From Lusitaniella coriacea LEGE 07157 (GTDB lineage: Bacteria > Cyanobacteriota > Cyanobacteriia > Cyanobacteriales > Spirulinaceae), in NCBI RefSeq assembly GCF_015207425.1, contig NZ_JADEWZ010000015.1, positions 1-64,000 of the forward strand: 64,000 nucleotides of DNA. The letters run 5' to 3'. Position 1 is the first letter of the stretch; the number at the start of each line of letters is the position of its first letter. Below the pieces are notes generated by a model. That model had not been told where the DNA came from and searched no databases. It worked only from the letters and a program-made list of their open reading frames with translations. The position numbers were made by a program, and so were the translations under genes. This document shows, piece after piece, positions 2 to 28,200 of this stretch.

Positions 2-1222
2 TTAGAAAATTACGAACAATCGATAGCTGACCATACCAAAGCAATCGAACTCAACCCCGCAAACCCCGGCTATTACGAAGAGCGTGCTTGGGCTTTTTCT
101 GCTTCAGGTCGGGATGAAGAGGCGAGGGCGGACTACACGAAAGCGAGCAAACTCAAGTCAGACTATGCCTCAGCTTATTACAATTTTGGCAATACTTTAT
201 TTGATTTAGGCAAATATGAAGAAGCAATCGCCAATTACACCAAAGCAATTGACCTCAAGCCTAGAGATTTCTATTATTACGATCGCGGAAACGCTTTATC
301 GGATTTAGGCAAGTATAAAGAAGCGATCGCGGACTATACTAATGCGATTGCACTCGATCCCAAAAATTCTGATTATTATTACGATCGCGGAAATGCTTGG
401 TTTGATTTAGAAAGATATCAAGACGCGATCGCGGACTACACTGACGCGATTGAACTCGATCCCACAAACCCCGATTATTACAACGATCGCGGTCGAGAGT
501 GGTGTCATTTAGAAAATTACGAACAATCGATAGCTGACCATACCAAAGCAATCGAACTCAACCCCGCAAACCCCGGCTATTACGAAGAGCGTGCTTGGGC
601 TTTTTCTGCTTCAGGTCGGGATGAAGAGGCGAGGACAGACTACACGAAAGCGAGCAAACTCAAGTCAGACTACGCCTCAGCTTATTACAATTTTGGCAAT
701 ACTTTATTGGATTTAAGCAAATATGAAGAAGCAATCGACAATTACACCAAAGCAATTGGCCTCAAGCCTACAGATTTCTATTATTACGATCGCGGAAATG
801 CTTTGTCAGATTTAGGCAAGTATAAAGAAGCGATCGCGGACTATACTAATGCGATCGAACTCAATCCCAAAGACTCCGATTATTATTACGATCGCGGAAA
901 TGCTTGGTTTGATTTAGAAAGATATCAAGACGCGATCGCGGACTACACTAATGCGATTGCACTCAATCCCAAAGATTCCGATTATTATTACGATCGCGGA
1001 AATGCGTGGTTTGATTTAAAAAGATATCAAGACGCGATCGCGGACTATACTAATGCGATCGAACTCAATCCCAAAGACTCCGATTATTATTACGATCGCG
1101 GAAATGCTTGGTTTGATTTAAAAAGATATCAAGACGCGATCGCGGACTACACTAAAGCAATCGAACTCGATCCTGACTTCACTGATGCAGACTACAATCG
1201 CCGCATGGCTTTAAGCTTCTAA
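2..1222 (+). CDS. TPR repeat protein, 5' end outside window
   Basis: The frame is open from the first bases of the window to TAA at 1220-1222 (406 codons visible), so the gene begins upstream; the TTG near 707 is internal. It encodes about twelve tetratricopeptide units of 34 residues. The last five are nearly identical, with a core like YYYDRGNAWFDLKRYQDAIA. TPRs form helical-hairpin superhelices that bind proteins; the partner is unknown. No membrane segment or catalytic domain is visible in the part present. At DNA level positions 1 onward repeat at 508 onward (507-bp period, 169 codons) with very few changes, a recent internal duplication. Many units carry GCGATCGC at the same codons (DAIAD). 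Call sure as a TPR protein, function unknown. Confidence 0.85.
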   Translation, partial: LENYEQSIADHTKAIELNPANPGYYEERAWAFSASGRDEEARADYTKASKLKSDYASAYYNFGNTLFDLGKYEEAIANYTKAIDLKPRDFYYYDRGNALSDLGKYKEAIADYTNAIALDPKNSDYYYDRGNAWFDLERYQDAIADYTDAIELDPTNPDYYNDRGREWCHLENYEQSIADHTKAIELNPANPGYYEERAWAFSASGRDEEARTDYTKASKLKSDYASAYYNFGNTLLDLSKYEEAIDNYTKAIGLKPTDFYYYDRGNALSDLGKYKEAIADYTNAIELNPKDSDYYYDRGNAWFDLERYQDAIADYTNAIALNPKDSDYYYDRGNAWFDLKRYQDAIADYTNAIELNPKDSDYYYDRGNAWFDLKRYQDAIADYTKAIELDPDFTDADYNRRMALSF

Positions 1223-1253
1223 TACACATTAAGCGTGAGTTCTAAAACGGAAT

Positions 1254-24259: not shown

Positions 24260-24997
24260 ATGACTGCACACACTCTCTCGCAAGTTCAAGGGCAAGTTTG
24301 TATTGCCGATCGCGTTTTTAATGCTGAAGAAGTTGTCGCGTTGATGGAAAAACATCAACTCATGCCGCACCTAACGCGCGAGGTCATTATCGATCGCGCG
24401 ATTGAAGCCATTTCCGTTACTCCTAAAGAAATCGCTTTTGCCTACTCCAACTTCTTTGCACAACGTCGATTAAGTCCGCCAGAATTACAACAATTTTGGT
24501 TACAACAACAAGGCTTAAGTCAAGCGCAACTACAGCAAAAATTAATGCGTGACTTGAAAATTCATAAATTCAAACAGGAAAATTGGGGTTCTCAACTTCC
24601 CGGATATTTCCTGCAACGCAAAACAGATTTAGATCGAGTTGTTTACTCCTTAGTTCGTACCAACAGTCTGATGATTGCTCAAGAACTTTACTTCCGCATC
24701 CAAGCAGGAGAAGCTTCTTTTGCAGAAATTTCGCGTCAATATTCTATCGGTTCGGAATCGCAAACGAACGGAATTGTGGGCCCTGTTGAATTGTCTCGTC
24801 TCGACCCAACTTTAGCTGGAATTCTCGCTAAAAGTTATGTGGGAAAACTGCTTCCTCCCGTGCAACTCGGCGAATGGATTGTCATTATTCGCTTAGAAGA
24901 ACAAATGCTTGCTCAACTCGATTCGGCAATGGAACAGCGATTGTTAGATGAGTTATTCGAGCAATGGGTGGGGGAATCAGTGAACAGTCATCAGTAG
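24260..24997 (+). CDS. Parvulin-type peptidyl-prolyl isomerase-like protein
   Basis: The protein (245 residues) has an N-terminal helical SurA-like region (EVVALMEKHQLMPHLTREVIID ... AQLQQKLMRDLKIHKFKQ) and a C-terminal rotamase-like domain (MIAQELYFRIQAGEASFAEISRQYS ... GPVELSRLDPTLAGIL ... LLPPVQLGEWIVIIRLEE). No signal peptide is visible, so it likely works in the cytosol, perhaps holding the substrate unfolded before export. It sits 60 bp after the putative substrate gene and before the exporter genes. Start is uncertain: TTG 24230 in the same frame is an alternative. Rotamase activity is inferred from the family only. Confidence 0.82.
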   Translation: MTAHTLSQVQGQVCIADRVFNAEEVVALMEKHQLMPHLTREVIIDRAIEAISVTPKEIAFAYSNFFAQRRLSPPELQQFWLQQQGLSQAQLQQKLMRDLKIHKFKQENWGSQLPGYFLQRKTDLDRVVYSLVRTNSLMIAQELYFRIQAGEASFAEISRQYSIGSESQTNGIVGPVELSRLDPTLAGILAKSYVGKLLPPVQLGEWIVIIRLEEQMLAQLDSAMEQRLLDELFEQWVGESVNSHQ

Positions 24998-25010
24998 GAA
25001 GACAATTACC

Positions 25011-25225
25011 AATTTACGCCTAATGTGGATTAAACCGATTCACTAAGATATCCAACCCACCTTGAATTCAAATTCAAGGCTAATAACTCAAGTCTATTCA
25101 AATGGACTCATACTTGTGAAATAAGAAGTTGACGATAAAGTCATCTTGAGATGACTTAGGCTATTAGCCAAGAACTTGAGTTCTTGGCGGTTGGAGGAAA
25201 CAAACGATTCACATTAAGCGTAATT
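25011..25225. mobile_element. MITE-like multi-hairpin element with terminal inverted repeats
   Basis: Ends match as imperfect inverted repeats: AATTTACGCCTAATGTGGAT (25011-25030) against the complement of 25207-25225. Inside, TCCAACC (25051-25057) pairs with GGTTGGA (25189-25195), enclosing three perfect 9-bp hairpins (25060-25079, 25138-25157, 25168-25187), one imperfect hairpin (25091-25108) and a possible TAATA/TATTA-type closing stem. The last hairpin reads CCAAGAACT-TG-AGTTCTTGG. No open frame. It could be a non-autonomous transposon or a structured RNA; both fit. Confidence 0.65.
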
Positions 25226-25289
25226 TTGAAAATGAATTGATGGCTTGATTCTACTGCTTACTACCTATTGCCTCTTTCTTTGAACTCTA

Positions 25290-28200
25290 ATGACTGTTAA
25301 TTCTCCAAACATTCAAGAATTTCTTGCTGTCGTTCCACCCTTTAATCGACTGTCGAATAAAGTGTTGATTCAAATCGCAAAAAAATTTGAAGTGCGACGC
25401 TATTCAATGGGTGAAGAAATCGCCATTGGCACGATGCTACCGTCGGAAATCGCCATTGTCTACCAGGGTAATGTGCGCTTGTTGGGGTACGAGCCTAATA
25501 CCCAAATGCCGATCGCGCTGACGTTACTCGAACCGGGCGAAATGGTAGGATGGGCGGGACTCATACGCGGTATTCCCACCGAAACCGCGATCGCGTCTAC
25601 CGATCTTCTCACACTCACCCTCCCAGCAGAAGACTTTTTGGGACTCCTTCGCAAACATCCCATTCTCGCAGAATATTTTCAGGAAACTCCCGCACTGAAC
25701 GAGACATTTGAATTTTTACATCAGGCTGTGCAGCAACAAGCCAAGCTTATTGAGAATGTGCAGAGACTTGCTTTAGAAGTCCATTCCAACACAATTGTCT
25801 GCAACCTCCCTCCTGGTAAATCTCTAGAAAAGCACCTCGATTCCGAACGGTTGTGGTTTCTTAGTAGCGGACGCATTTCCGGGAAGCGTCGCGAATTACC
25901 TCCAGGAAGTCCCCTAAACCGCGACTTCAGCGAGGGGTTAAAAGTGGCGGGAGATCGTCCCGCGCGCCTGATTGGGCTTCCTAAGTCAGTTATCAGTCAT
26001 CAGCGCCTGACGGCAAGGCAGATGGCAGATGGCAGTAGGCAGATGGGAAAAACCCACGCCGACAAAGAAAGGGAGGAAGTTTCTGAAGAGTCATCAGTCA
26101 ACAGTGGAGAGGACAGACGGGGGGAGGAAGATGCGGAGACACGGGGAGGGGGAGACACGGAGAGTAATGGTAGGGGTGCAATGCTTGCGCCTAGAGACTC
26201 CACACCCCATCAAAATTATCCCTTCTTTCGAGGTCGAAGAGGCGCGGTTGATGCGACATTAGCCTGTTTTACCATGCTGGCGCAATATTTCCGCATTCCC
26301 TTCCGGCGAGAGATCGTACAGCGTCTTCTCATAGAACAGATGCAGCGTCGCGGAAGTTTATCCCTGAATGCTTGCGGTTCCGTTGCGGAATTGATGGGGT
26401 TGAATATCCAACTCTTGCAGGTTCCCCCCTCCGCCGTGACGCGCCTTCATCCCCCTGCGTTGATTTATTGGGAAGATAGTGTTGCTATTTTATACGAAGC
26501 GCGCGATCGCGTGATGGTTATTGCCAATCCCAGAGAAGGGATTGAAACCTATTCCCCCGAAGAATTTATTGAAAAATGGGATAAACGGGGACAAGTTTTG
26601 CTCCTCCAACCGGGTAAAGAAACACCCCAACAGCATTTTGGCTGGCAATGGTTCCTTCCCGCACTTTTTAAATATCGCAAAGTTCTCTTCCTGGTTTTAC
26701 TGGCATCCTTTTTCGTTCAACTCTTTGGGCTGGCAAACCCTCTCATTATTCAACTGATTATCGATCAAGTTATTGTTAAAGGCAGCTTCGATACTTTAGA
26801 TACATTAGGTATTTTTCTCCTCGCTGTCGCCGTCTTTGAAGCCCTGTTAAGCAGCCTGCGAACCTACTTATTTGTTGATACCACAAATCGCATCGATCTC
26901 ACCCTCGGAACAAAAATAATCGACCGCCTTTTACGCCTCCCACTGCGCTATTTTGAACGGCGACCCGTTGGCGAGCTTTCGAGTCGAATCAACGAATTAG
27001 AAAACATCCGATCTTTCCTTACTGGAACTGCCCTAACTGCTGTCTTAGATGCAGTATTTTCCGTAATTTATGTGATTGTAATGCTATTTTATAGCTGGAA
27101 ACTTACGATCGTCGCCCTATCAACAATTCCCATATTTGTTCTGATTGCTGCATTCTTCTCGCCCATCGTCCGCAAACAACTGCGAACCAAAGCCGAACGC
27201 AATGCCAAGACTCAATCTTACCTTGTTGAAGTGGTATCGGGAATTCAAACCGTAAAAGCCCAAAATATTGAATCGCGATCGCGCTGGCGCTGGCAAGACT
27301 ATTATGCTCGTTACGTCACCGCAGGCTTCAGAACGGTTATTACCTCAACGACTGCCAGTGCAATTAGTAACTTCCTCAATAAATTCTCCGGTTTATTAGT
27401 CCTTTGGTTCGGTGCATCTCTCGTTCTGAAAGGACAACTCACCTTGGGTGAATTAATCGCTTTTCGGATTATTGCCAGCTACGTCACCGGGCCTGTTCTT
27501 CGTCTCGGTCAATTGTGGCAAAATTTTCAAGAAACGGCATTGTCATTGGAGCGAATTGCTGATATAATAGATACACCCCAAGAAGCAGAAAAGGATCGTC
27601 GTAATATTCCCATGCCGAACCTCCAGGGTGCGGTGAAATATGAAAATATTTCCTTCCGTTTCAGAAGCGGCGATACGCTACAACTCGATAATGTTAACCT
27701 AGAAGTTAAAGCCGGACAATTTGTAGGAATTGTTGGACAAAGTGGTGCGGGAAAAAGTACGCTAACCAAACTATTAGTCCGCCTTTACGAACCCGACGCA
27801 GGTCGCATCTCCATCGATAATTACGACATTAGTAAAGTCGAACTTTATTCCCTGCGGCGACAACTGGGTGTCGTTCCCCAAGACACCTTATTATTCGACG
27901 GAACTGTTGAAGACAACATTCGCCTAACCAATCCAGACGCAACTACCGAAGAAGTGATTGAAGCGGCGAAAATTGCTGCGGCACACGACTTCATCATGAA
28001 CTTACCCAACGGTTACGATACGCGAGTGGGAGAACGGGGTTCCGCCCTTTCCGGGGGACAACGACAAAGAATCGCGATCGCGCGAACCATCCTGCAAAAC
28101 CCACAACTCCTGATCCTCGACGAAGCCACAAGCGCCCTCGACTACCCCACCGAACGCCAGGTGTGCGAAAATCTCGCCCGCGCCTTTGCCAACACCACCG

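Follow-up and report, generated by a model that had tools for sequence, protein, structure and literature searches.

We describe a short mobile element in the cyanobacterium Lusitaniella coriacea LEGE 07157, located at 25016-25221 of the window, by which we mean the whole stretch analysed (64,000 nucleotides, positions 1 to 64,000 of contig NZ_JADEWZ010000015.1). Its core is very probably an untagged relative of the REPINs (inverted pairs of repetitive extragenic palindromes, REPs), a non-autonomous element of one clade of Y1 transposases (clade A) that is carried in its own genome as cargo of a miniature inverted-repeat transposable element (MITE) of the DDE type. We also lean, if only slightly, towards regarding such cores as a distinct class: a two-hairpin repeat that is processed as a single strand, read by its TNAA loops and architecture and not by a tag or stem sequence, moved by clade A in several phyla and repeatedly packaged in DDE MITEs, with two possible engines.

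Anatomy of the element

The 5-bp duplication AATTT, present on both sides, sets the bounds of the element. Its parts, in window coordinates, are the following.

25011-25015, no strand: left copy of the target-site duplication AATTT, placed by a 5-bp flank-agreement test over 27 elements with terminal inverted repeats (TIRs)
25016-25031, plus strand: left TIR, ACGCCTAATGTGGATT, placed by an end-motif search against a reversed control and by the flank test
25057-25108, plus strand: two-hairpin unit 1, consisting of CC and a 9-bp stem, TCAA loop, linker TAATAACTCA, 7-bp stem and TCAA loop
25109-25138, no strand: 30-nt centre separating the inverted units
25139-25190, minus strand: two-hairpin unit 2, the inverted copy, consisting of CC and GCCAAGAAC/TCAA/GTTCTTGGC, linker TAATAGCCTA and AGTCATC/TCAA/GATGACT (minus-strand reading)
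25206-25221, minus strand: right TIR (GATTCACATTAAGCGT on the plus strand), placed by the end-motif search and the flank test
25222-25226, no strand: right copy of the target-site duplication AATTT, placed by the flank test

An earlier note, made from the letters of the window alone, had listed TIRs, an outer stem, three perfect 9-bp hairpins and one more with imperfect pairing. All of these are present, the 9-bp hairpins on the assumption of 2-nt loops; when the loops are taken as 4-nt TNAA/TTNA, the hairpins measure 9, 7, 7 and 9 bp. The stems of unit 1 contain an A-C mismatch at the foot of the 9-bp stem and one T-G wobble in the 7-bp stem. That this is far more structure than chance gives is borne out by folding (z of -7.8 for the plus and -8.0 for the minus strand), as none of 200 shuffles folded as well.

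Counting copies, one of the checks proposed in that note, gave 23 matches in the own genome at E<=1e-3 (query 25000-25240). Seven of these (the window copy and L009, L010, L011, L012, L013 and L014) are nearly complete: each keeps both hairpin pairs, and their flanks are unrelated. The others are fragments or copies with internal deletions.

The outer layer: a DDE-type MITE

The TIRs of the window element agree at 13 of 16 positions. The end motif GATTCACATTAAGCGTAA, allowing up to 3 mismatches, has 123 matches in the own genome against 5 for the reversed control; 100 of the 123 places were listed. TIRs of about 16 bp are common to about 20 other short elements of this genome; a number of these differ greatly in their interiors, with element lengths of, for example, 108, 115, 122 or 129 bp, and lack the hairpin core. 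The length of the target-site duplication was determined on 41 fetched sequences, yielding 27 elements with both ends placed (one of them, L024, doubtful; L012 and L014 fell outside the set since one end was too diverged). A scan of registers pointed to one, in which flank agreement was then tested against 2,000 shuffled pairings. The 5-bp flanks agree at 4.04 of 5 positions versus 3.10 in the shuffled pairings (z 6.6), and are identical in 10 of the 27 elements versus a shuffle mean of 2.46 and maximum of 8. Nothing clear emerged for 3, 4 and 9 bp (z -0.9, 1.7 and 0.3), and 6, 7 and 8 bp reached z 2.0-2.3 with exact identity in 2, 0 and 0 elements. A duplication of 7 to 9 bp, as read by eye for this TIR, was therefore rejected.

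By its anatomy, then, the element is a non-autonomous MITE of the DDE type. The MITE reading offered in the earlier note stands on the interspersed copies, the shared TIRs and the 5-bp duplication, and the search for target-site duplications that it had called for gave a positive answer. Its search for a transposase with matching ends did not: no such gene was recognised within either of two widely spaced TIR pairs in the own genome. One pair (C43, 1.5 kb) encloses several open reading frames (ORFs), among them a putative FKBP-type protein, the second (C1) spans 3.2 kb, and both were rejected as insertion sequences (IS).

Among the short MITEs sharing this TIR in the own genome (L026, L031-L047 and others), lengths step by 7 (108, 115, 122, 129), which fits a heptamer repeat inside them that gains and loses copies.

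The inner core: two-hairpin units with covarying stems

The interior of the element consists of two inverted copies of one 52-nt unit: CC, a 9-bp stem with TNAA loop, the linker TMATAGCnnA, and a 7-bp stem with TNAA loop. This core reaches well beyond the own genome. A search of 39 genomes with the whole element gave matches in 18, the own genome included, and among the matches listed from other genomes all fall in the interior, with L063 of genome G036 adding a 17-nt match to the right arm. An exact unit pattern, which fixes linker, loop and stem foot only, has 4,616 matches, spread over 196 of the 388 genomes sampled from the order; the reversed pattern has none. Counts range from 0 to 149 per genome, and the units form inverted pairs and tandem arrays; neighbouring pairs less than 300 nt apart are tail-to-tail in 109 of 201 cases.

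The unit stems vary while their pairing is kept. In 71 units picked by the linker and the two preceding bases, thus blind to pairing, 86.9% of the cells are paired versus 65.6% after shuffling (0 of 500 shuffles as high), and double-change cells number 265 versus 86. Sliding the partner column by one lowers pairing to 44-46%. Hairpin 1 was also counted separately over 136 sequences: its six inner pairs are Watson-Crick in 78-83% versus 26-59% expected, and its three outer pairs are near-invariant and show little or no excess pairing. The element is thus multicopy and has covarying stems, the opposite of the single copy without conserved pairing that the earlier note had named as speaking against it.

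The GT[AG]G tag of REPs lies near hairpin 1 in 0 and near hairpin 2 in 2 of 325 distinct units from the fetched loci. Because the tag is absent or nearly so, the units are not canonical tagged REPs, and a GTAG-type identity was rejected.

In genome G234, two core copies (L263, L265) are apparently interrupted within hairpin 1 by a short GC-rich repeat.

Association of the units with one transposase clade

Y1 enzymes, such as those of IS608 and TnpA-REP, bind single-stranded DNA hairpins and cut beside them. Among 30 PF01797 loci of relatives, units occur at three (L103, L107 and L102). The Y1 proteins of L103 and L107 are homologous, and L102 holds a different IS200-type gene beside one copy. 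PF01797 loci with longer frames, considered as the expected partners of the type known as REP-associated tyrosine transposases (RAYTs), were rejected, all 15 (L109-L123) being free of units. When a third member, L126, served as the query, 127 of the 388 genomes had matches at E<=1e-15, mostly one per genome, and 83 had close homologues (E<=2e-40); the own genome has no match to this query at E<=1e-15.

With a strict finder applied to flanks of up to about 1.5 kb, units are found at 27 of the best 30 loci of this clade (the query's own included) and at 17 of a further 20, hence at 44 of 50. Inspection by eye of the six loci missed showed units in five. The sister clade (clade B) has units at 0 of 20 loci, though 18 of those 20 genomes carry the unit pattern elsewhere. 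As a control, the finder reports 1 unit in 669 kb of shuffled loci versus 141 in 167 kb of real ones. Enzyme and units also co-occur across genomes: the exact pattern is present in 68 of the 83 genomes with a close enzyme versus 128 of the 305 others (Fisher 4e-11). In a set of named genomes, which overlaps the first one, the strict finder detects units at 59 of 80 loci. A relaxed finder, run with no shuffled control, gave a result in 10 of the 21 strict misses; one (L399) was discounted as not unit-like, leaving nine more.

The earlier note had also raised the possibility of an RNA partner of an absent transposase. The absent transposase is retained, given that the core matches repeats flanking a Y1/HUH clade that has no match in the own genome at E<=1e-15; the RNA guide is not.

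Six loci lie on contigs of metagenome-assembled genomes (MAGs) from outside the cyanobacteria. The strict finder detects units at those of KSB1, Candidatus Marithrix and Desulfobacteraceae; one of Chloroflexi (L421) has units by the relaxed finder only and with different loops, and those of Anaerolineae and another Chloroflexi have none. The presence of clade and units in L377, L405, L415 and L421 suggests cross-phylum transfer or mis-binning.

Properties of the clade

Most clade A frames encode about 130-158 aa with an HUH motif DH[IV]H (or NH[IV]H), a W motif WQ and a Y motif Y---Q--HH. A few of the 52 proteins depart from these, for example L219 at HUH and L214 and L216 at HH. The Y---NP motif of TnpA-REP is not found in the clade. 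Three of its proteins score 22-30.5 bits with the REP_Tyr_transpos model (cut-off 80) and 85-91.4 bits with the IS200 model (cut-off 55). Judging by motif, clade A belongs to TnpA-Y1 subclass 1.2. A tree was built from the 52 clade A proteins, 18 of the 20 clade B loci (two lack a usable frame) and 21 other Y1 proteins from 28 loci. Support is 97/98 for clade A, 97/91 for clade B and 100/100 for the two together versus the other 21; the program warned of long branches. As similarity had been the basis for choosing the sets, the tree says no more than that the split by similarity coincides with a split between clades. Clade B proteins have about 40% identity, and the rows shown also contain Y---Q--HH.

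In one genus the gene and its unit arrays occupy an orthologous place in 5 of 9 loci, and the number of units around the gene differs between congeners. The ratio of nonsynonymous to synonymous substitution rates over the 36 pairs of these nine loci is 0.10-0.32 (median 0.20).

At L134, L137, L139, L151 and L154 the Y1 gene and its arrays lie between ORFs matching the PbeC/DndD and DndC models (matched in L137), a setting that looks like a DNA phosphorothioation-type defence operon.

How the two layers meet

Bare cores adjoin the enzyme, and two different DDE MITE types carry the core elsewhere. This follows from the distribution of the own TIR and of a second TIR, CATNGGTGTCAACTTAA, within 130 nt of unit clusters. 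Neither is present at any of 93 clusters at Y1 loci, 13 in genome G003 or 25 at further pattern loci. In the own genome, 8 of 9 clusters have the own TIR nearby; in the relatives' set 2 of 24 do, one of which is an own-genome copy. The second TIR accompanies 6 of 17 clusters in G234 and, among those of the relatives' set, 4 of 24, and forms of it are visible in G004, G010 and G013. The second type also has a different duplication. Comparison of the composite L258 with its clean empty site in G288 reveals the 9-bp duplication AGCATTGTT, and in each of five genomes (G338, G288, G255, G378 and G184) the matches to its two flanks share 9 bp. The empty site of a further composite, L253, is also in G288, and its two 9-bp flanks differ at one base. 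We infer that the bare cores are primary and were captured by the MITEs.

A comparison of the G003 flanks with G011 and G012 gave, among the matches listed, only repeated matches to one arm of L239.

Proposed mechanism

Two layers would thus move the element. In the outer one it would transpose as a non-autonomous DDE-type MITE by means of its TIRs of about 16 bp, producing 5-bp target duplications. The inner one is the inverted pair of untagged two-hairpin units, whose relatives flank the mostly single-copy Y1/HUH clade. These units would fold once single-stranded, for example on the lagging-strand template, and the Y1 enzyme may recognise the loop of the TNAA hairpins and the architecture rather than the stem sequence. 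With such recognition the stems could drift freely, yet in compensated pairs. The enzyme would then nick at the unit ends and move the inverted pair. Capture by MITEs probably took place at least twice, and DDE transposition may have kept the elements moving where the Y1 gene is absent. In the own genome, where no close enzyme was found, the DDE route would be the only one left.

Counter-evidence and alternative explanations

Several observations weigh against this proposal. Cleavage of the units by the Y1 enzyme is presumed from association, not from biochemistry, and that association is limited to one clade inside subclass 1.2, since the clade B rows have Y---Q--HH but no units. Even by eye, L133 has the enzyme and no unit. 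The exact pattern is missing from 15 of the 83 genomes with a close enzyme, several of which have variant units at the gene (L103, L107, L141, L149), and 12 of the 80 named loci have no units by either finder or nothing unit-like. Conversely, 35 genomes with at least 20 unit matches have no enzyme match at E<=2e-40; some of them have sister-clade or partial matches, and draft assembly, decay or loss could explain such unit-rich genomes. For bare cores, no clean empty site was obtained among the sites compared. L266 is absent from three congeners with junctions that are not cleanly alignable, and the four-hairpin core L261 of G234 corresponds to a single hairpin CC..GGCGG at the orthologous site L304 of G335, a remnant that led us to reject L304 as an empty site. 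For the outer layer, neither of the widely spaced TIR pairs C43 and C1 yielded an autonomous DDE partner.

The alternative that survives best, though in our view an unlikely one, is that Y1 gene and units have been domesticated together, the enzyme no longer mobilising the units but using them to serve the host, for instance in fork processing or chromosome structure. It would explain why most genomes hold one enzyme match, why the locus is shared within a genus and under purifying selection, and why units persist in genomes without a close enzyme. Unit counts from 0 to 149 per genome and differing numbers around the gene in congeners speak instead for continuing amplification.

We give still less credence to the core as a conserved structured RNA (a riboregulator, or a processing or termination element) whose nearness to the Y1 gene would reflect regulation of that gene. 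The strong compensatory change is what such an RNA predicts, but it suits single-stranded DNA equally well, and both strands fold about equally well. The intergenic site between co-directional genes in the window also agrees with an RNA. Nevertheless, a repeat that reaches 149 exact units per genome, is arranged in inverted pairs and tandem arrays and, at one site, is missing from congeners behaves like a mobile one. An Rfam scan of the window at gathering score returned two tRNAs only, leaving the element with no match to a described structured RNA family and giving no evidence for the functional RNA suggested in the earlier note.

It is very improbable that the element is a plain DDE MITE with ordinary palindromic filler and no link to Y1: the TIRs, the 5-bp duplication, the interspersed copies and the other short elements with this TIR and no hairpin core would all agree with it, but in other families the units come without these TIRs (none of the 93 clusters at Y1 loci has one nearby), and they gather at a single transposase clade (44 of 50 loci versus 0 of 20 in the sister clade).

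Relation to known systems

Y1/HUH enzymes act on single-stranded DNA hairpins (PMC6006769). In the same paper (Quentin et al. 2018), TnpA-Y1 subclass 1.2 is characterized by DH[IV]H, WQ, Y---Q--HH, about 148 aa, low copy number and occurrence in Cyanobacteria and Bacteroidetes, and Table 1 has 'no' for it in the REP column. Clade A shares the three motifs, the length, the low copy number and the presence in Cyanobacteria with the subclass as described there. It differs in being flanked by, and co-occurring with, two-hairpin units where the subclass is listed without REP, and in its occurrence in a few MAG contigs of KSB1, Candidatus Marithrix, desulfobacteria and Chloroflexi.

With REPs and REPINs (also known as BIMEs, bacterial interspersed mosaic elements) and their RAYT/TnpA-REP enzymes, our system shares inverted pairs of palindromic units, high copy number, and a Y1 gene that is low in copy number, keeps a stable locus and has its own units in the flanks. 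Here, however, the units lack the GT[AG]G tag and each has two hairpins with TNAA loops, and the three clade proteins fall below the cut-off for REP tyrosine transposases and above that for IS200. The IS200/IS605 family and its non-autonomous derivatives likewise combine a Y1 transposase with hairpins near the gene, whereas the present units are inverted and in arrays and the gene is mostly single-copy and positionally conserved in one genus. No tnpB was recognised among the ORFs listed for L103, L107 and L126, no systematic tnpB search having been made.

Cyanobacterial MITEs such as Nezha, named in PMC3733652, are similarly short and TIR-bound; they are set apart by the 5-bp or 9-bp target duplication and the Y1-type core as cargo seen here. 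The GTAG-12, -15 and -16 REPs (Di Nocera et al. 2013, PMC3733652) are cyanobacterial palindromic repeats as well and are tagged, unlike the present units. We found no account of these units in the largely open-access literature searched, including passages of PMC3733652, PMC12306157 and PMC6006769.

If the proposal is right, an orphan HUH Y1 branch (subclass 1.2) gains a candidate DNA substrate and its target becomes assayable by simple cleavage. It would also account for a family of repeats that number in the thousands across cyanobacterial genomes, and the presence of a REPIN-like core in two unrelated cut-and-paste MITE types would illustrate a route by which repeats outlive their own enzyme.

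Surroundings in the window

The element sits in a 292-bp gap between two co-directional ORFs. The first (255 aa, ending at 24997) is read as a putative peptidyl-prolyl isomerase and the second (1023 aa, starting at 25290) as a putative ABC exporter. The right-end sequence CACATTAAGCGT, noticed earlier as occurring twice, does recur, at 1225-1236, within the following feature.

1221-1238, plus strand: match to the right end of the element's TIR family, with 3 mismatches to the window's own end

Going by comparison with the short TIR elements, this match is probably the right end of a truncated one, and it lies where a gene for a repeat protein has its 3' end. About 100 bp past it begins a CRISPR-like array (approximately 1343-1975) with a repeat of about 36 bp, GTTTCCAACTAATCCGATTTAACCCAGTCGGTAGGG.
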